Virus record (IMG/VR): IMGVR_UViG_3300027793_000194 | Coordinates: 1-33,633 of that record | Source: a virus | DNA: 33,633 nt | Direction: 5' to 3' (one strand) | Part shown: positions 16,859 through 29,338 of the stretch, piece after piece | Numbering within the stretch: the stretch's first letter is position 1 | Layout: each line of letters opens with the position of its first letter | Program-made: the position numbers and the translations under genes | The notes under the pieces: generated by a model | Seen by the model: only the letters and a program-made list of their open reading frames with translations | Told to the model about the DNA's origin: nothing | The model's database searches: none

Positions 16859-17665
16859 ATGGATAAACTCAGCATCAAAGAGGCCGCCGACCTCCACACA
16901 TTGGTTGAAGAACTGGATATAAAAATTGCCATCATCACGGCGATGTGGAAACGTCCTGAGGTATTCCGTCTGTTTGCTATGCAGGTTCAATATCTGCAAT
17001 TCATCTATGGCGCGAACCGCATCCAGTGTTTTGTTGCCGGATCGGAAGGTAAGGCCAGCGAGACGGCGGCAATAGATTACGGATTTACCTACATCGAACA
17101 CGAAAATAAACCTATCAGTAAGAAACTTGACGCGGCTTGTCAACTGGCGCGCGAGTGGAATCCTGATTATTGCCTGATGCTTGGATCGGATGATCTCGTG
17201 GGAGTCACGATGATGGAAATGTATCTGAGGGAGGCGCGGGAGAATAAGACCGACTACCTGTACACATTGGATTGCTATTTTTATGACATTGTGAGCAAGA
17301 AGTCGCTTTATTGGGGCGGGTATCGCGCCAGCAATAATCGCGGCCATGCCTGTGGTGCGGGTCGAATGCTGTCGAATAAGTTGATGGAGGCAATGGATTG
17401 GACACCGTGGAAGCCCGCGTACACCAACGCCCGCCTTGATGGATTACTTGATACGGCGATGGATTATCAGATGGCCGGAGTGGAGCACACTAAAAAAGCC
17501 TTTAACTTGCGCGACGAAAACGCATACATGGTTGACATTAAGAGCAGTACAAACATGACACCGTTCCGCAAGTGGGATAATACTGATTTTATTGATTCCG
17601 CGCCGATGCTTGCATCTGCCTTCCCTCAGCATATTTCACATGAAATACTAACCTGCACAGAATGA
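16859..17665 (+). CDS. Glycosyltransferase, GT-A type
   Basis: In this 268-residue protein a short N-terminal helix (residues 1-20, similar to the micro-ORF at 15849) precedes a GT-A fold. The parts are the first strand KIAIITAMWKRPEVF (22-36), CLMLGSDDLVG with the metal-binding DxD-like Asp pair (109-112), and an acceptor-side motif HACGAGRMLSNKL (163-175). The same GAGRMLS motif is in the second phage glycosyltransferase at 30313. It probably transfers a sugar from a nucleotide donor in the cytoplasm; the acceptor is unknown. It starts the cassette of glycan-type genes, with ATGA coupling to the methyltransferase. Confidence 0.75.
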   Translation: MDKLSIKEAADLHTLVEELDIKIAIITAMWKRPEVFRLFAMQVQYLQFIYGANRIQCFVAGSEGKASETAAIDYGFTYIEHENKPISKKLDAACQLAREWNPDYCLMLGSDDLVGVTMMEMYLREARENKTDYLYTLDCYFYDIVSKKSLYWGGYRASNNRGHACGAGRMLSNKLMEAMDWTPWKPAYTNARLDGLLDTAMDYQMAGVEHTKKAFNLRDENAYMVDIKSSTNMTPFRKWDNTDFIDSAPMLASAFPQHISHEILTCTE

Positions 17666-18195
17666 ACCTGACACACCCGAAAGAATTTTACAAAAATTAC
17701 GTTGCCGACAATCACATCGACGACATTGATCGCGTGTTAATTTCTGAGATCATCAAATTTGAACCAGCGTCCGTCTTTGAGTTTGGCTGCGGATCGGGGA
17801 AGAATTTGAAGATGATAGAGGCCGTAATGCAGAAAAGGATCGAAACCTGCGGGCAGGATATTTCAATACTAAACTGCATTCAATCGCACTTGGCTGGAGT
17901 GGATAGCGTGATATGTGGGGATGAACGGCATCTTCCAATCAGGCCGTTTGATGTGGTGTTTACTTGCTCTGTATTGGATCACATCCCACACGAAAACATT
18001 GATGCGCTGGTTGACGGTCTGAAGACTATGGCGCGTAAAGCCGTGATCGTCTGTGAAACCAATAGCTTTAATGAGAACTTTTATTATCGGCATGACTACC
18101 AATCAATGGGGTTTGCGCAGGTTGGGGCGGATATGGTAAGCAATGGTGACGGGGGCATTTACCAAATCTTTGTTTTCCAATGTGCGGAATTATAG
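17662..18195 (+). CDS. SAM-dependent methyltransferase, class I
   Basis: This 177-residue protein shows SAM-binding motif I VFEFGCGSGKN (38-48), an acidic residue after strand 2 (CGQDIS, Asp66), a GDERHLPIRPFDVVF segment like motifs II-III, and VLDHIP in the place of motif IV. There is no DNA methyltransferase signature such as DPPY. With its neighbours it most likely methylates a sugar or other small acceptor in glycan assembly. It overlaps the next gene by 16 bases. Confidence 0.8.
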   Translation: MNLTHPKEFYKNYVADNHIDDIDRVLISEIIKFEPASVFEFGCGSGKNLKMIEAVMQKRIETCGQDISILNCIQSHLAGVDSVICGDERHLPIRPFDVVFTCSVLDHIPHENIDALVDGLKTMARKAVIVCETNSFNENFYYRHDYQSMGFAQVGADMVSNGDGGIYQIFVFQCAEL

Positions 18196-19604
18196 CATTC
18201 ATCCCACGAGACACTACGGCACGTTACGATATGGATCGTGGCTTAGATGCTATGGCGCACAGGGGATCAGATGAGAGGATCATCAAATTCTACGATCATT
18301 GCGTGATTGGTTACCTGAGAATGTCCGTCACCGATCAGGCCGCGCCAGCAGTCGGCAAGGCCAATGGACTTGATGTGTACCTGAATGGCGAGATTTACAA
18401 TTACAAGGAACTTGGCTACACAGGCAGCGAGACGGAAGTACTGGCAAAAGGATTCTTTGCCGAAGGCGACGCATTCGCTGAACGGCTTAACGGAATGTTT
18501 TCGATAATCGTGGTCAGCGATACAGAGGTTAAAACGTATTCAGATCGCTATGGTATTAAGCCTTTATACTTTGCCGACTTAGGTAATGGCGTGATCTGTT
18601 CATCTGAGATCAAGCCGATACTGAACTATGAAGGATTTGAAAGGCGCATTGATTTCAACCGCGTCAAGGAATGGATGACCGTTCAACACCCGCTTAGTCA
18701 GTCAATGATGCTTCACGGGATTTATGACTTGGCAAGAATAAACCGTAGCAGGGCTAAATGGCAATGGAAGTTTGAGCCGGATTATTCGATAACTTACGAA
18801 TTTGCCGTATCTGAGGTGCGTAGACTTCTGCTTCAGGCAATCAACAGGATGCGCGTCGATGAACCTTCTGGCGTGTGTTTATCGGGCGGCATTGATAGCG
18901 GGATACTTGCCGCGCATACAGGATCGGCGCATAGCTTTACGGTTGGATATGAGGGCACGGAGGACGAGCGACCAATGGCGCGTCTGATGGCGCGGGATCA
19001 TCATCACGAAATTGTGTACAATCGCGTTGAGCATTTGCCGGAGACGATCTTTTACCTTGAAGACCTTCGTGCGGGTGCATCGTGGCCAAATTACGGAATG
19101 TATCAGGAGGCAAAGAATTATGTTCGCATCTTGTTTGATGGAGCGGGCGCGGATGAATTATTTGCGGGTTATGAGTGGCGTTATCACAACACTGACTATT
19201 GGCAGGTAGTGAACAGGACGCGCGAGAACATTCCATCGGTGCAGCGTTATTATGAAGGTGGGAACTGGAACTTTGCGGATCGGTTTACATACGATGCTCA
19301 AAACTTTTTGCCGTCTGTTTTAATGGTCGGTGATAAGCTGAGTATGGCGCACACATTAGAGGTTCGCTATCCGTTCCTTGACAATGATCTTGTAGACTTC
19401 TGCTTAACGATTCCCTATGAGTTCAAAAAAAATAAACAGGTGCTAAAGGATGCATTTGCCTGTGATCTTCCATCCGAGATATTAAACGGTCCAAAGCGTG
19501 GATTTACCTCACCGGATTGGATTGCCGGAGAGGGTAATCAGGCACGCAAGTGGAGCGTTGAAGCATTCAAGACGTGGCGTAAAATCTTCACAAATGAGCA
19601 ATAG
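18180..19604 (+). CDS. AsnB-type glutamine-dependent amidotransferase
   Basis: This 474-residue protein has a glutaminase class II domain with the catalytic Cys2 directly after Met (MCGIIAF), which fixes the start, followed by HRGSDE (27-32), NGEIYNY (69-75) and GSETEV (82-87). The synthetase domain has the ATP pyrophosphatase loop SGGIDS (235-240) and FDGAGADELFAGYEWR. SMAHTLEVRYPFLD completes the family pattern. It is shorter than cellular AsnB (about 550 residues). Such proteins make asparagine, but those beside glycosyltransferases and acyltransferases often amidate uronic acids in surface polysaccharides, which I consider more likely here. Confidence 0.85.
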   Translation: MCGIIAFIPRDTTARYDMDRGLDAMAHRGSDERIIKFYDHCVIGYLRMSVTDQAAPAVGKANGLDVYLNGEIYNYKELGYTGSETEVLAKGFFAEGDAFAERLNGMFSIIVVSDTEVKTYSDRYGIKPLYFADLGNGVICSSEIKPILNYEGFERRIDFNRVKEWMTVQHPLSQSMMLHGIYDLARINRSRAKWQWKFEPDYSITYEFAVSEVRRLLLQAINRMRVDEPSGVCLSGGIDSGILAAHTGSAHSFTVGYEGTEDERPMARLMARDHHHEIVYNRVEHLPETIFYLEDLRAGASWPNYGMYQEAKNYVRILFDGAGADELFAGYEWRYHNTDYWQVVNRTRENIPSVQRYYEGGNWNFADRFTYDAQNFLPSVLMVGDKLSMAHTLEVRYPFLDNDLVDFCLTIPYEFKKNKQVLKDAFACDLPSEILNGPKRGFTSPDWIAGEGNQARKWSVEAFKTWRKIFTNEQ

Positions 19605-20106
19605 CATTTATGATCTTCACGGGTGGTTGCAAATCAATGGCAATCACATTCACGAGACAGCCATTATCTATCCCAATGTGACGATGGGAAAGGGGAACTA
19701 CATTGGGCCTTACACGGTCATTGGCGGCAATGGTGAGATCAGGGGAGTGGATCAGACGGAGTTTAAGGGAAAGGTATTCATTGGTGATAATAATGTTATC
19801 AGCGAACTGGTGACAATTCAAGCACCTTATGAATCTACGATGACGATCGTTGGATCAAACAATATCATTATGGCGCACGTTCACATTGGGCATGATGCGC
19901 ATATCGGTGACGATTGCGAGATATGCACTACAAGCGTGATCGGTGGTTATGCTCAGGTTATGACGGGTGCGAAGATCAAATTGCATTGTGTGATCCGCAA
20001 TCGCGTGACGGTTGGTGCGCGATCAATAGTCGGGATGGGAAGTGTTGTGACCAAAGATGTGCCTGCCGGATTAACTGTGTACGGTAATCCGGCATGTATT
20101 CACTAA
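19594..20106 (+). CDS. Left-handed beta-helix acyltransferase, LpxA-like
   Basis: This 170-residue protein starts at ATG 19594, overlapping the amidotransferase by 11 bases. Hexapeptide repeats run through the whole chain: ETAIIYPNVTMGKGNYIGPY, TIVGSNNIIMAHVHIGHDAH with the catalytic-type His pair, and VTVGARSIVGMGSVVTKDVP followed by AGLTVYGNPA. The ending is typical of acetyltransferases and LpxA-like acyltransferases. It probably acylates an amino sugar made or transferred by the cassette. Confidence 0.8.
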   Translation: MSNSIYDLHGWLQINGNHIHETAIIYPNVTMGKGNYIGPYTVIGGNGEIRGVDQTEFKGKVFIGDNNVISELVTIQAPYESTMTIVGSNNIIMAHVHIGHDAHIGDDCEICTTSVIGGYAQVMTGAKIKLHCVIRNRVTVGARSIVGMGSVVTKDVPAGLTVYGNPACIH

Positions 20107-20110
20107 CATC

Positions 20111-21424
20111 ATGAGCTGGCAAGATGACTACCTACCCAAGCAGATAGAGGCATTACTTCACTTATCCTCCGTAAGTCCTTGTGAATTAGTGCTTTACGGT
20201 GGCAGTGCTGGATCGGGAAAGTCGTGGCTCGGATGCCGATGGCAAATAATGCGCAGACTGCGTTATCCACAAACGCGAGGATTGATTGGAAGATCAAAAC
20301 TCGACACGCTAAAAAAGACAACGCTACGCACATTCTTTGAAGTGTGCGGTCAGCTGAATATGGTGAGTGGCAAGCATTACACATTCAACGGACAATCCAA
20401 CATCATATCATTCTATAATGGTTCAGAGATTATTCTGAAAGACCTATTCGCCTATCCATCAGATCCGAATTACGATTCACTTGGATCACTTGAGATCACC
20501 GATTTCTTCATTGATGAAGTCGCACAAGTGACGAAGAAGGCAGTTGACATCGTTACCTCGCGCGTGCGTTACAAGTTGAATGAATATGAATTGCGTCCGA
20601 AAGGATTGATGAGTTGTAACCCATCACGCGGATGGTTATACAATGAATTTTATCAGCCGTATAAGGATGGCACATTACCGCATTACCGCGTGTTCGTGCC
20701 TGCGCTTCCGGGCGATAACACACACCTACCTGACACATATCTTGACACGCTCGCTCGTCTGCCCGAACAAGACCGCAAACGCTTGCGCGATGGCGATTGG
20801 GATTATGACGAGAGCATTGATCGTATTTACAATGTGGATGACTTGTTGCGATGCTTCAGAAATGAGATGATGCCCGGAGAAAAATATATCACCGCAGATA
20901 TTGCGCGTCTTGGAAAGGACCGCACGGTCATTGCGTATTGGGAAGGGATGACGCTGGTATCACTCACCATTCTTCGCAGAGCGCGAACTGATGAGGTTGT
21001 CAACAAAGTGCGCGAGGTGATGGCGCAGAAGCAAGTACCATTGAAGAATGTTATCGCGGATGAAGATGGTGTTGGAGGTGGTGTGGTGGATGCGCTGAAG
21101 TGTCGCGGATTCATCAATGGCTCGCGTGCAGTTCACCCGGATAGATACACGAATCTCAAATCGGAATGTTATTACCGATTGGGTGAGGTAGTGGAGCAGA
21201 ACAAAATCACATTCATCTGCGGTTATCGCGATGAGATAGTGAAGGAGTTGGACCTGATCCGCAGACGCAATCCTGATGGTGATGGTAAGCTATCGGTGAC
21301 TGGTAAGGAGGAGATAGCGCGTCTGCACGGATTCTCGCCTGACCTTGCGGATGCCATTATGATGCGGATGTACTTTGAACTTCGCCCGAATTATGGCACT
21401 TATTCGGTGGGTAGTGGGAGATAA
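20111..21424 (+). CDS. terL: Terminase large subunit
   Basis: This 437-residue protein is the packaging motor ATPase and nuclease. Walker A is GGSAGSGKS (30-38), Walker B with catalytic Glu is DFFIDE (131-136), and the coupling motif is SCNPS (168-172). The RNase H-like nuclease domain has Asp263 (TADIARLGKDRT), Asp319 region (IADEDGVGGG) and the C-terminal Asp pair in SPDLADAIMMRMYF. All key residues are present. It is the last gene of the early plus-strand array, unusually far from portal and capsid genes and opposite in strand. Confidence 0.95.
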   Translation: MSWQDDYLPKQIEALLHLSSVSPCELVLYGGSAGSGKSWLGCRWQIMRRLRYPQTRGLIGRSKLDTLKKTTLRTFFEVCGQLNMVSGKHYTFNGQSNIISFYNGSEIILKDLFAYPSDPNYDSLGSLEITDFFIDEVAQVTKKAVDIVTSRVRYKLNEYELRPKGLMSCNPSRGWLYNEFYQPYKDGTLPHYRVFVPALPGDNTHLPDTYLDTLARLPEQDRKRLRDGDWDYDESIDRIYNVDDLLRCFRNEMMPGEKYITADIARLGKDRTVIAYWEGMTLVSLTILRRARTDEVVNKVREVMAQKQVPLKNVIADEDGVGGGVVDALKCRGFINGSRAVHPDRYTNLKSECYYRLGEVVEQNKITFICGYRDEIVKELDLIRRRNPDGDGKLSVTGKEEIARLHGFSPDLADAIMMRMYFELRPNYGTYSVGSGR

Positions 21425-25081: not shown

Positions 25082-27367
25082 TTAGATATTTTTAAGTGAG
25101 CCGCGTGTTGGTGTGTCGATGGGCGCGATGCCTTCCTCACCTTTCGGTGGGAGGAATGGAACATTGCCCACTCGCTTGTCATTTTCCAATCCTTTATTGG
25201 GCAGGAATCGCCCATTCTCGTTGCGCTTGCGGAAGTAGATTTGTCGCTTCCAAAAATGGTGGCAATACACACCACCTTTCCAAGTGAAGATGTCGTAAGT
25301 CGATGAACCTGCTGGAGCGAATGAACCATTCACACCACTATCACTCATATTCGCGATGTCCTCATATCTGAACACTTTACCGCGTTTGCTCAAGCCAACC
25401 ATCTCGCGGCAGAAGTCGCGTGAGTCTTCAGATAAATTTTGCGAGTAGGCATAGCGCAATTTATACAAACCACTATCTCCCCACTTACTCTTCTCATCGC
25501 CATTGGCGTAGTCATTGAGCGACAAATCCGCACGCTGGAGCGCATTGTATTTTTCATTCAGATCAGATTCAAATTCGTGACCTTCAGCAACATCCTCACG
25601 AATCAATTCCCACTCATCTAAATCTATCACCTCACCTTTATCTGCGAGATAACCTATCCACGATTGCTCATCCTCCTCACTAAATTTAGGGATAGCACTC
25701 AACTCCTCATCGCGGTAACGCTCGACTATTCGTGCTGACCAATCACGACCGGGATCACCTCCCCACAACTGCCACGCGATGCGACCAGCAGTTGGAAATC
25801 CTTCCTCTCCATCATTCCATCCTGTGGCTTCCTTGTCCACTTCGTGTCGCGAGAAGTAACTATTCATCCGCTTGACGGTGTCGTATGAGAGATTGCGCAA
25901 GTTGCTGATGTCACGCGCACGCGCAACACCTACCTCTGTGCCACCACGCCCATACTCTTCGCGCCATTTCAAACCAAGTTCAGCTTCTGCTGCCATTTCA
26001 TTGGTCGGCTCAAATGAATCAGGAATTACAAGAGCAGTTTTTTTTTTTTGAACTGCGCTCAACACAATCGAGCGCAACACTTCAGTTGATTGAACGCTGC
26101 CCGGAATGATTGCATCAAAGATTTGATTGATGGTAACAATCGACAATGTCGGGAATGCAGCTTGAACAATGCTCTTCGCGCTATCCTTTGGCAACAATCC
26201 AGTTGATACTTGAGCAACTATGTCAACAAGACTTGTTATCTGCGCACCATTCAATGCGGTGTCACTCACATTCGCTGCATCTTCATCTTCGCTAATCGTA
26301 ATGCCTTGTAATGAATATGGCTTAATGGCAACCACCTTGCCTGTGATAACCTCCAATGCCTCCACTATATCTTGCTGCGCTGGCTTCACCACATACGCAT
26401 TGAAGATAGCGAGTGATTGACGCAATTCATCAGCGTTACTTCCAAGACCTGTGCTATCACGAATACCAAATAAAAGAGGAGAGGTGACGCGGTGACCAAT
26501 CATAATCTGTCGTGTCTGCGATTCCTCCAAATATTGATACTGCTTATCCGCATCACTCAACGGGAATGTGGTGATGTTAGGTGGTGTCACTCCAGCTTCG
26601 TGGAATGTGAAGAATGCCTTACCAGCATTACGCGCACCCGATGCGTGACGATTCCATTCCGCGATGATCTCGCGCTTGGTTTCGGGATCAGGCACGCCAT
26701 TGAATTGCGATATAATGAATGACGGGAAGAAGCCATTCATAATGTTATTGACGTGATAGATACCTATCTGCCGCGCCAATTCGATATAATTAACAACGCT
26801 GAAGTAGTCTGGCTTTCCGTAGTATTGACTTCCTGCGCGATTCGCGAAATGGAAGTACACCTGTCGCGGTTCATCACCAGCAGTTGCTTGATTGAAGCGA
26901 GGAATGAACATAGGTTCACATCCCTTCTTCCTATAGTTCGCCCAATCCTTTGAATACCAAATGCCCGTCACCTCATCCGTTTCATCAACAATCGACAATC
27001 GGCAATTCTCAAAGGGCAGATGGTTGATCTGCGCTACCGTTGTGCGATCATTGCTCCATATCACCTCCAAATAAAAGCCACCTTGCACCTTCAAATCAAA
27101 GGCGGTGCGATCAAGTTTCTTATCACCAAACATCGCGACCACCGATTCATCACCAGTCAATCCATCACCTGCTATCATCTTGCTGATTGATGTGCAGAGA
27201 GGTCCGTGAATTGGCGCGGTTTCATACAAATCAATGATGTATTTCGGGAAGAGGTTATCATCACCATACTTCACCCATCCACCGCGATCCTCTTTCTCGC
27301 TCGCACTTACAGGTGTGTAGTCAGCAAGCTGAACGCGATGAACCTTGTTGATTTCGTTGTTATCCAT
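25082..27367 (-). CDS. Portal protein with C-terminal extension, joined through an A12 tract
   Basis: This protein has 761 residues from ATG 27367 (a TTG three codons earlier is possible). Residues 1 to about 435 are portal-like: RGGWVKYGDDNLFPKYIIDL, then the clip and stem region, then IGHRVTSPLLFGIRDSTGLG followed by SNADEL. The coding tract A12 (26038-26049) encodes Lys-Lys-Lys at about residue 440. Beyond it are a domain with YGRGGTEVGVARARDISNLR and AWQLWGGDPGRDWSARI, and a C-terminal part FAPAGSSTYDIFTWKGGVYC followed by HHFWKR, both seen in phage head proteins. A slip of one base either way in A12 hits a stop within ten codons and gives a roughly 450-residue portal, the usual length. 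Confidence 0.85.
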   Translation of the reverse strand: MDNNEINKVHRVQLADYTPVSASEKEDRGGWVKYGDDNLFPKYIIDLYETAPIHGPLCTSISKMIAGDGLTGDESVVAMFGDKKLDRTAFDLKVQGGFYLEVIWSNDRTTVAQINHLPFENCRLSIVDETDEVTGIWYSKDWANYRKKGCEPMFIPRFNQATAGDEPRQVYFHFANRAGSQYYGKPDYFSVVNYIELARQIGIYHVNNIMNGFFPSFIISQFNGVPDPETKREIIAEWNRHASGARNAGKAFFTFHEAGVTPPNITTFPLSDADKQYQYLEESQTRQIMIGHRVTSPLLFGIRDSTGLGSNADELRQSLAIFNAYVVKPAQQDIVEALEVITGKVVAIKPYSLQGITISEDEDAANVSDTALNGAQITSLVDIVAQVSTGLLPKDSAKSIVQAAFPTLSIVTINQIFDAIIPGSVQSTEVLRSIVLSAVQKKKTALVIPDSFEPTNEMAAEAELGLKWREEYGRGGTEVGVARARDISNLRNLSYDTVKRMNSYFSRHEVDKEATGWNDGEEGFPTAGRIAWQLWGGDPGRDWSARIVERYRDEELSAIPKFSEEDEQSWIGYLADKGEVIDLDEWELIREDVAEGHEFESDLNEKYNALQRADLSLNDYANGDEKSKWGDSGLYKLRYAYSQNLSEDSRDFCREMVGLSKRGKVFRYEDIANMSDSGVNGSFAPAGSSTYDIFTWKGGVYCHHFWKRQIYFRKRNENGRFLPNKGLENDKRVGNVPFLPPKGEEGIAPIDTPTRGSLKNI

Positions 27368-27752
27368 TGTAAACAATAGTTGTGTCAGCAGTCATATCCG
27401 GCTGCGTGAAATATGATGTGTTGTCGCTTATCACTCCCCATCCCTTCTCCACCAATCCCACCACCGCGACATTTTCGGGATCAGTATTATTCGCGCTATT
27501 CTGACCATACACCTCGTAACGATAACGCCCCGGCACGGTAATGCCAACCGTTGTCACTTCTAATTTTGTGATGCGGTCATTCTCATAATCAATCACCGCC
27601 ACCTGCGCGAGAGTTTCAGGCACATCATTCAAATGCGCCTCGCGCGTCAACACAAGCAGATAGTGAGTGAATGCACCGGGCAATCCTGCGCGTGCCTCTT
27701 TCAGTGTCAGATATAAATCTTGACTTGCGGTGTTGGTGACGAGATATATCAT
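27360..27752 (-). CDS. Hypothetical structural protein
   Basis: This 130-residue protein is beta-rich (QDLYLTLKEARAGLPGAFTH, then YLLVLTREAH, then VPGRYRYEVYGQNSANNTDP). I know similar small proteins from Bacteroidota phages near the tail tube or portal gene and assume a virion role, but cannot prove one. Its ATG lies 5 bases after a TAATTTTG box and after a strong terminator, so it may start a separate transcript with the portal. It overlaps the portal start by 8 bases. Confidence 0.65.
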   Translation of the reverse strand: MIYLVTNTASQDLYLTLKEARAGLPGAFTHYLLVLTREAHLNDVPETLAQVAVIDYENDRITKLEVTTVGITVPGRYRYEVYGQNSANNTDPENVAVVGLVEKGWGVISDNTSYFTQPDMTADTTIVYNG

Positions 27753-27757
27753 CGATT

Positions 27758-27765
27758 CAAAATTA
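27758..27765 (-). promoter_or_regulatory. -7-like box TAATTTTG directly before a start codon
   Basis: The minus strand reads TAATTTTGAATCGATGA into the gene at 27752, identical in 16 of 17 bases to the sequence at the endolysin start. It lies just downstream of the terminator at 27771-27797, a sensible place for a new promoter. Confidence 0.4.
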
Positions 27766-27770
27766 AACCA

Positions 27771-27797
27771 AAAGAGCGGGCAAATGCCCGCCCCTTT
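27771..27797 (-). terminator. Intrinsic terminator after the tail tube gene
   Basis: On the minus strand GCGGGC-ATTT-GCCCGC forms a 6-pair core that can extend through AAAGGG/TCTTTT using G-T pairs, followed by TTTT. It ends transcription of the scaffold-capsid-tube group or dampens the portal gene downstream. Confidence 0.75.
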
Positions 27798-27820
27798 GAT
27801 GAATATATTGATCAGGCAGA

Positions 27821-28372
27821 TTAGCTATTGCTGCCGTATGCGGGAGATACGGTGATGCCTGCAAAGTTATCAAATGGCTCGGTGGTAAATGCCTCAAGGT
27901 GTTCAGCTGGCTCACGCTCTTCTGCAGTTGCTACAAGAGAGTAACCATTCTGATCTCCTTTCGCCTGACCAGTCTGCGCGGTTACGGCAATGGTGCATCC
28001 CTCTTGCCTTCCCATACACAAGATGTTATCATTGCTATCGCGCACGAAGATGATAGGTGTTGAACGCGCAACATTGTCGAGGTTCTTGCGCGTCACAGGA
28101 TCGAGTGTGCGGATGATAGCATTGAGCGTCTGAAGATAGAAGAGAGTACCTGTGGTTTCATCCGGTGTGCCTACATCGGTGAACGATGATGATCCGCGAC
28201 CTACTTCAAATCGGTAAAGTGTGGCAGTAGGCAGACCATCAATCTCTTCAGTAGATGGATCTATTGTTATGCCTGTCTGAAAGTCCCCACGATTACCAAT
28301 GAGAAATTCCTTGATGCCTCCGAGTGCCTCCTTGCATCCGAGCGTCTTACCTGCGGTGATTAAACAACTCAT
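27821..28372 (-). CDS. Major tail tube protein
   Basis: This 183-residue protein starts with SCLITAGKTLGCKEALGGIK, the N-terminus typical of a tail tube protein family of Bacteroidota phages. It continues with FYLQTLNAIIRTLDPVTRKN, IIFVRDSNDNILCMGRQEG and GYSLVATAEEREPAEHL, matching the tube core. It would form the stacked rings of the tail. It follows the capsid gene closely, separated by a strong hairpin, which fits two highly expressed structural genes. Confidence 0.75.
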   Translation of the reverse strand: MSCLITAGKTLGCKEALGGIKEFLIGNRGDFQTGITIDPSTEEIDGLPTATLYRFEVGRGSSSFTDVGTPDETTGTLFYLQTLNAIIRTLDPVTRKNLDNVARSTPIIFVRDSNDNILCMGRQEGCTIAVTAQTGQAKGDQNGYSLVATAEEREPAEHLEAFTTEPFDNFAGITVSPAYGSNS

Positions 28373-28394
28373 TGTGATTTGTAATTAAAAGTTA

Positions 28395-28422
28395 AGGTGA
28401 GGAGGTGTTACCCTCCTCACCT
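28395..28422 (-). terminator. Strong hairpin between capsid and tail tube genes
   Basis: AGGTGAGGAGG and CCTCCTCACCT pair perfectly over 11 bases with a 6-base loop. On the minus strand it is followed by TAACTTTTAATT, a poor T-run, so it may partly terminate or protect the capsid message end. Confidence 0.7.
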
Positions 28423-28435
28423 ATTGATTCATTGA

Positions 28436-29338
28436 TTAAGACAGACCAGGACCGTAAGCAGCGATCTCGTTACCGAAACCATACTGCACACCAGCGAGGA
28501 ACTTCGCGCTGAAGCGAACATTCTCCTCTGCCCATTGCTCCATATCCACTACCTGAATTGAGTTCCAATCAGACAGGAGGTTAGTACCGAACCACAGATT
28601 GCTTTTCTGCGAAACAATCATTGTGTTGTCAGGCATACCGGGGCAGATCGCGATGTCGTAGATGCCCATAAAGGTCGGCTCAACTGCTGGACCTGCATAA
28701 GTATACCATCCATTACCAGCGGCAGCATTCGCCTGACGATAGAGGTGGAAGGTTTTCTTATTCATATAGAGCAGCGGCTTCTCTGTTGAGTTCTCAACCG
28801 CAGTTGGAACTTCAGCGAGGAGCAACTCAATCTTCGCGATGATGTTATTGGCAGTAAGAGCAACAGGAGATGATACGAAGTTCACGGTGTTATCAGCATC
28901 AATCTGCGTGATAAGACCATCGTATTCACCAGTATTGCCATTAACACCTGACCAAATCAGGGTTTCATTTTTCGCTGCGATACCTGCGAGCATATTAGCT
29001 ACGAGAGTATCTACGAGCGCACCTTCCAAACGACCATTCTGCGCATCGTTAGCTGCCCAGTCGGTGAGGAAGTCTTTCTTACAAAGTTCGCGCTGAACTT
29101 GGAACTTCTCAAGCGTCAACACGCGCTCGGTGATGGTCACCGTGCCTGTTGGTGTGAAGTCGCAAGTTGGTGCTGCGAAGGTTACCGTATCAACGAGCTT
29201 CTTAACTACTGCTTTGTAGTCGATATTCTCCTTGACGGTTACATACTGAAGTGATTCATTCGCAAGGAATGCTTGACGAATATACTCACCTGCATATTTA
29301 CCAGCGTAGGTAGTGGTGAGTGAAGTGACTGTTGCCAT
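28436..29338 (-). CDS. Major capsid protein, HK97 fold
   Basis: This 300-residue protein has features of the Bacteroidota phage capsid family: YAGEYIRQAFLANESLQYVT, CDFTPTGTVTITERVLTLEK, QVQRELCKKDFLTDW, and a C-terminal part with MPDNTMIVSQKSNLWFGTNL and AGVQYGFGNEIAAYGP. It forms the head shell. The preceding gene is a scaffold; a prohead protease is encoded elsewhere in the genome. The ATG is 26 bases after the scaffold stop. Confidence 0.9.
   Translation of the reverse strand: MATVTSLTTTYAGKYAGEYIRQAFLANESLQYVTVKENIDYKAVVKKLVDTVTFAAPTCDFTPTGTVTITERVLTLEKFQVQRELCKKDFLTDWAANDAQNGRLEGALVDTLVANMLAGIAAKNETLIWSGVNGNTGEYDGLITQIDADNTVNFVSSPVALTANNIIAKIELLLAEVPTAVENSTEKPLLYMNKKTFHLYRQANAAAGNGWYTYAGPAVEPTFMGIYDIAICPGMPDNTMIVSQKSNLWFGTNLLSDWNSIQVVDMEQWAEENVRFSAKFLAGVQYGFGNEIAAYGPGLS

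Follow-up and report, generated by a model that had tools for sequence, protein, structure and literature searches.

A conserved A run inside a viral portal gene as a candidate slip site for short and long portal proteins

The portal gene of an uncultured virus carries a run of twelve A's at the point where its portal body passes into a C-terminal extension. This run is probably a programmed slip site at which RNA-polymerase slippage would let a single gene yield two portals, one short and one long, both available for the portal ring; we give this reading a probability of roughly three in four. On comparison of related loci, the run is conserved, slips at the run meet early stop codons, and in one lineage the sequence just after it shows constraint in the -1 frame. 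We infer that both proteins are made, that RNA polymerase is the slipping agent and that both forms enter one ring. The initial annotation had already proposed a short and a long portal made from one gene by polymerase slippage: the slip site is now strongly supported by comparison, whereas polymerase as the agent is favoured but not proven.

The virus and its two-part portal gene

The window, i.e., the whole stretch of viral DNA analysed (33,633 bases), has its last 100 bases repeated at bases 28-127, and the record therefore terminates in a direct repeat of about 127 bases. A Bacteroidota host is likely, as the terminase has its nearest matches in Flavobacterium phage 11b (48%) and Cellulophaga phage phi10:1 (46%); two scans of genome contigs from bacteria and archaea found no relative. 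The terminase (20111-21424, plus strand) and the portal (within 25082-29338, minus strand) lie on opposite strands, and a candidate major head gene (28436-29338, minus strand) stands upstream of the portal gene, which differs from the typical phage gene order of terminase, portal and capsid. On the plus strand, 16859-20106 holds genes that we take to resemble a glycosyltransferase, a methyltransferase, a class II glutamine amidotransferase/asparagine synthetase (with an MCGIIAFI start) and a hexapeptide acyltransferase; this gene run possibly serves surface or nucleotide modification.

The portal ORF starts with ATG and stays open for 761 codons. The run is the longest homopolymer of the window (the second longest has 9 bases), and it is in frame and encodes Lys-Lys-Lys at the junction of portal and extension, as first described. 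The features discussed below are the following.

25082..27367, minus strand: portal gene with C-terminal extension, 761 codons, the unslipped product (ORF list, translation, PF04860 and PHROG matches)
26050..27367, minus strand: portal body, about residues 1-440 (Pfam/PHROG, alignment, portal-only relatives of 407-423 aa)
26038..26049, minus strand: putative A12 slip tract (T12 on the plus strand), codons CAA AAA AAA AAA ACT, read Q-K-K-K-T
26026..26028, minus strand: TAA stop reached after loss of one A, predicted 446 aa product (in silico)
26019..26021, minus strand: TGA stop reached after gain of one A, predicted 449 aa product (in silico)
25658..25984, minus strand: optional middle domain, phrog_2859-like, residues 462-570 (PHROG match; phrog_2859 is a function-unassigned family)
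25085..25681, minus strand: constant C-terminal domain, R-x-Y-x-Y ... R-x-F-C ... ED ... GG ... C-x-H (alignment)

The portal assignment comes from PHROG portal families, matched over residues 12-342 (E 8e-63), and from PF04860 (Phage_portal), matched over residues 89-337 with an E-value of 9.6e-9 and 35.3 bits, under the curated cut-off of 39.1. Since the portal matches end at residue 342 and the phrog_2859 match occupies residues 462-570, these matches place the A12 tract between the portal body and the C-terminal extension. A slipped product would consist of the portal body, K-K-K and a few residues, both slip stops falling within about 10 codons as the initial annotation had said. It would probably be a complete portal, because relatives of 407-423 residues exist without any extension.

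The last domain of the extension is conserved in an alignment of the window with 35 relatives, and the only match common to all aligned constant C-terminal domains is phrog_33693 (portal). Pfam gave no convincing family for this last domain, a profile search of solved structures with the extension gave no match, and two models of the extension had no significant counterpart in fold searches of the PDB (Foldseek, VIA-align; model pLDDT 73). Domains like phrog_2859 also turn up in head genes that are unrelated to the portal: at the N-terminus of an annotated major capsid protein gene in Roseobacter phages, in the capsid genes of Synechococcus S-CBS1/S-CBS3, and in proteins of Vibrio, Limnohabitans and PaBG phages. 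The middle domain thus looks mobile and head-associated.

The place of the extension is taken by a separate MuF gene in the two phages with the nearest terminases, 11b and phi10:1. Homology of the extension to MuF was considered and not found: Pfam MuF (PF04233) had no match in the extensions of 37 members, and the hhalign comparison with 7 MuF sequences (phage Mu gpF and relatives) gave a probability of 0.4%. No PF04233 gene was found in the window genome. In Porphyromonas phage phage014a, an annotated portal of 853 aa (L322:836-3397) has a C-terminal part that matches phage Mu gpF; on this match, portal and MuF are constitutively fused in this Bacteroidota phage.

Conservation of the run among relatives

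A whole-protein search of viral contigs, of which the best 80 of 149 relatives were kept, returned 78 loci that reach the junction (L025 and L055 end before it and were excluded), and all 78 have an in-frame A10-A12, so that the long tract is indeed kept by relatives, a point raised at the outset. An alignment search with the portal part only is blind to the extension and to the frame. Among its best 80 of 596 matches were 77 viral loci, some on contigs common to both sets; 76 reach the junction and 73 of these have A9 or more, the three loci without the run being L086, L087 and L092. Further searches started from L206, L223 and L190 found the run in 41 of the 52 junction-reaching loci with a recognisable extension and its absence in 11, leaving out three loci cut before the junction and one (L375) without a recognisable extension. 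The locus set is a sample, as the extension search (best 80 of 545) and the L209-portal search (best 80 of 82) also were, and some contigs stand under two locus ids (e.g., L027/L084, L209/L239, L218/L247).

Complete portal parts were grouped at 90% identity into 85 clusters, leaving out incomplete portal parts and run-less loci cut before the junction. At least 9 A's are present in 44 clusters, 34 are fused without the run and 7 are portal-only; the fused ORF organisation around the run is common to 42 representatives. The run reaches at least 10 A's in 42 of the 44 tract-bearing representatives, and the same loci hold only two other A/T runs of at least 10 in 382 kb. Run length is close to all-or-none: of 239 distinct 3' sequences, 174 carry 9-12 A's, and the other 65 lack any run of 8 or more. 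A coding-sequence run of at least nine A's or T's, a mark of programmed transcriptional slippage sites, is found in the window (A12) and in the 44 representatives (A9-A12). On these comparisons we reject the view of the A12 as a chance homopolymer.

Downstream of the run there are two continuations: the middle domain in 18 of the 44 tract-bearing clusters, and the last domain directly in the other 26. The middle domain is present in 1 of the 34 tract-less fused clusters.

The same fusion without a homopolymer, which the initial annotation regarded as counting against slippage, does exist, in 34 of the 85 clusters, three of them inside the window's 41-cluster clade. These 34 clusters indicate that the fusion works without the tract, which is not needed for it. 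In a quick tree, the run is present in 38 of the 41 rows of the window's clade (absent in L087, L092 and L168), in 5 of 8 rows of a second group and in 0 of 34 rows of a third, and the presence or absence of the run changes six times. The three exceptions in the window's clade appear, from their placement, to have lost the run secondarily. The third group includes an isolate, Nonlabens phage P12024S, in which portal and extension are fused and no A run exceeds 6. At the junctions of L086 and L087, an Ala/Pro-rich linker stands in place of the run and the fusion is kept; at that of L092, the fusion is kept without the run and even without K-K-K.

Slip outcomes, a reversed lineage and competing readings

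Slips in either direction would end translation early in most relatives. Loss of one A brings a stop within 15 codons in 34 of the 42 fused representatives, and gain of one A does so in 40 of 42; the mean stop distance is below that of 200 of 200 synonymous shuffles after a loss and of 186 of 200 after a gain (14 of 200 are as low, which is weak alone), shuffle counts that overstate independence because the representatives are related by descent. The exceptions are L206 and L207, whose slip stops come only after 18 and 40-45 codons. From this pattern, slips both ways seem to have been selected for immediate termination.

The strongest evidence that the slip site is used comes, in our reading of the comparisons, from one lineage in which portal and extension are two separate genes, as the initial annotation had suggested might occur in relatives. 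In this split lineage (14 contigs: L239-L247, L249-L252 and L317; GC 51-55%), a portal ORF of about 388 codons and an extension ORF overlap in the -1 register and would be joined across the tract, an arrangement found in 14 of the 14 junction-reaching contigs of the L209 lineage (best 80 of 82). The overlap carries A9, or a compensated A10 in L250. This organisation is present in at least two non-identical homologues, as required in PMC1088944, namely the L209 type and L250, which are 83% identical. The first start codon available to the extension ORF is a GTG that lies 55 bases after the start of the tract and overlaps the portal stop. From the tract to this GTG, 9 of 16 residues read in the -1 frame are identical in L209 and L250, 7 of them encoded by synonymous codons; frames 0 and +1 each give 1 of 15. 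Closely similar contigs (L209/L240, L246/L251, L246/L252) likewise differ by single bases that are synonymous in the -1 frame and not in frame 0. The stretch after the tract is, by these substitutions, constrained in the -1 frame and not in frame 0. Ribosomes that arrive through the portal would thus read it in -1, and such conservation before the only possible start would call for slippage on or close to the run. Here too, production of both forms is probable, with the default frame reversed.

Several readings without slippage were weighed against this evidence. Internal initiation, with the extension made also, or only, from a start near the tract, is improbable. An in-frame ATG lies within 10 codons upstream in 9 of the 44 representatives, which is not above the 10.3 expected, and the GTG of the split lineage, overlapping the portal stop as it does, is preceded by 16 codons conserved in -1 with no earlier start codon; we rejected an internal start for most loci on these two grounds. 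A little less probable again is a lysine-rich linker kept for protein reasons, its A-rich codons owed to bias, without any recoding. This reading would account for the K-K-K that all 42 fused representatives have, and it agrees with the rather high A+T content of the genomes, but the first two Lys codons are AAA and never AAG in 44 of 44 representatives, when AAA makes up 56% of Lys codons elsewhere in these ORFs and K-K-K elsewhere in the loci is all-AAA in only 4 of 48 cases. The lead base stays A except in phase-0 cases, and the tract-less fused relatives, more A+T-rich (mean GC 38% vs 41% in tract loci), have no such run. The A9/A10 at the ORF overlap of the split lineage is kept in contigs of 51-55% GC, and the -1-frame constraint there counts against a linker as well. 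Codon bias and composition were therefore rejected as the cause of the run, and the codon usage points to selection on the nucleotide run itself, beyond the lysines, although common descent makes these codon counts, too, less independent than they look. Least probable of all is phase variation, in which changes of tract length in the DNA would switch the extension on or off between genomes. The A run of L155 (3344-3353) is one base shorter than in close relatives, so that portal and extension read split, and in L368 (junction near portal codon 431) a run one A short likewise gives split ORFs; these splits may reflect a natural switch of default or an error of assembly. Outside the L209 lineage, in which the split is fixed, they are the only 2 cases among about 200 run-bearing loci, when a phase-variable tract would be expected often out of frame, and DNA phase variation was rejected for most loci.

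The alternative that weighs most, unlikely as we find it, is programmed -1 ribosomal frameshifting, of which E. coli dnaX is an example. Acting on A_AAA_AAA/G it would give the same two products: all 44 representatives have this heptamer, of the form X_XXY_YYZ, in frame, and a -1 shift is exactly what the split lineage needs. Such shifts are also frequent in phage tail and head genes (PMC5009743, in part). Seven A's would suffice for it, yet 42 of the 44 representatives keep at least 10, and AAG is tolerated as the third Lys codon only where ten A's remain: it is found in 7 of 26 representatives whose preceding codon ends in AA (the run still reaching 10) and in none of the 16 in which it would leave fewer than ten A's (Fisher p 0.03, uncorrected for kinship). 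Nor is there a constant downstream structure or Shine-Dalgarno-like element, the downstream fold z averaging -0.55 (below -2 in 2 of 44) and an SD-like motif occurring in 12 of 44. A missing stimulator is not decisive, because some phage -1 frameshift sites have none. The signal of early stops is no weaker in the frame out of reach of -1 shifting, so that a polymerase adding and dropping bases would fit better than a ribosome moving only by -1. The run is moreover found in all three codon registers. RNA-polymerase slippage is favoured over ribosomal slippage on this register-independence, the run length and the lack of constant stimulators.

With polymerase slippage as the preferred reading, RNA polymerase would add or drop A's over the run of 9-12 A's in part of the transcripts. 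The long portal-extension fusion would come from the unslipped message in the window and in most relatives, where a slipped message would reach a stop within about 10 codons and yield a portal of about 446-449 residues; the split lineage would make the short portal from the unslipped message and the fusion from the slipped one. Both products would be available to the portal ring, where few to many subunits may carry the extension into the head. The initial annotation spoke of a few extended subunits, which need not hold in the window: the long form could make up half or more, because there the unslipped reading is the long form.

Meaning and comparison with known systems

The portal ring is the passage for viral DNA into and out of the head, and portal rings are usually taken to consist of a single type of subunit. 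If both forms enter the ring, a slip site whose run length is preserved over a diverse phage family would be a simple genetic route to mixing two kinds of subunit in each ring, and would load a set dose of an internal domain. We infer a need for two portal forms; a low or set dose of the extension domain in the ring would be a reasonable purpose. The fullest version of this picture we hold tentatively, at slightly less than an even chance: that widespread uncultured aquatic phages, probably of Bacteroidota, build their portal ring by design from two kinds of subunit, through A-run slippage, the slip rate setting the number of subunits with an internal head domain at the place that a separate MuF protein has in other phages. 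The relatives offer a natural comparison between a run that is present, a run that is lost and a default frame that is reversed.

Our search of the open-access literature turned up no slip or frameshift site in a portal gene. The word "portal" is absent from the first 300,000 characters of a review of recoding (PMC5009743), and a word search did not find it in the main texts of PMC3711429 and PMC10885494. Programmed slippage to two lengths, capsid and tail proteins extended by frameshifting and constitutive portal-MuF fusions (PMC7302621, in part) are already known. What looks new, from the comparison of loci, is a conserved slip site inside a portal gene, kept in many related uncultured phages.

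As to architecture, the closest parallels are the portal-MuF fusions of Microbacterium phage clusters EA3/EA5/EA8/EB (PMC7302621, in part) and of the Porphyromonas phage, in which a portal body and an extra head domain also share one gene. Unlike the Microbacterium fusions, the extension described here has no MuF match, and the parts of PMC7302621 consulted mention no slip site. One gene giving two C-terminal lengths is known from the major capsid proteins of phages T3, A2 and Listeria phages and from gp17.1/17.1* of SPP1, with a set ratio of lengths in the virion (PMC5009743, PMC6316719, both in part). These are ribosomal shifts in capsid or tail tube genes, and the portions consulted mention no portal ring and no run of A10-A12.

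As to mechanism, insertions in A/T runs increase exponentially with run length in Escherichia coli and Buchnera (PMC5574713, in part). In dnaX of Thermus thermophilus, transcriptional slippage on A9 makes 50% short product (PMC1088944, in part). There, as predicted here, the unslipped message gives the long protein and the slipped one a short protein ending near the run, which is A9 there and A12 here; dnaX is a cellular gene for a polymerase clamp-loader, whereas the present candidate site lies in a virion portal gene and is conserved over a large viral family. The tssM1 gene of Citrobacter slips on A11 to a longer form at 20-25%, and tssM3 of Yersinia has the mirrored default (PMC4256274, in part). 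TssM is a membrane protein of type VI secretion, and its ratio was measured. In both systems a poly-A run goes with two product lengths, predicted ones for the portal, and with mirrored defaults in relatives; tssM also lacks stimulators, and no constant one was found at the portal site.
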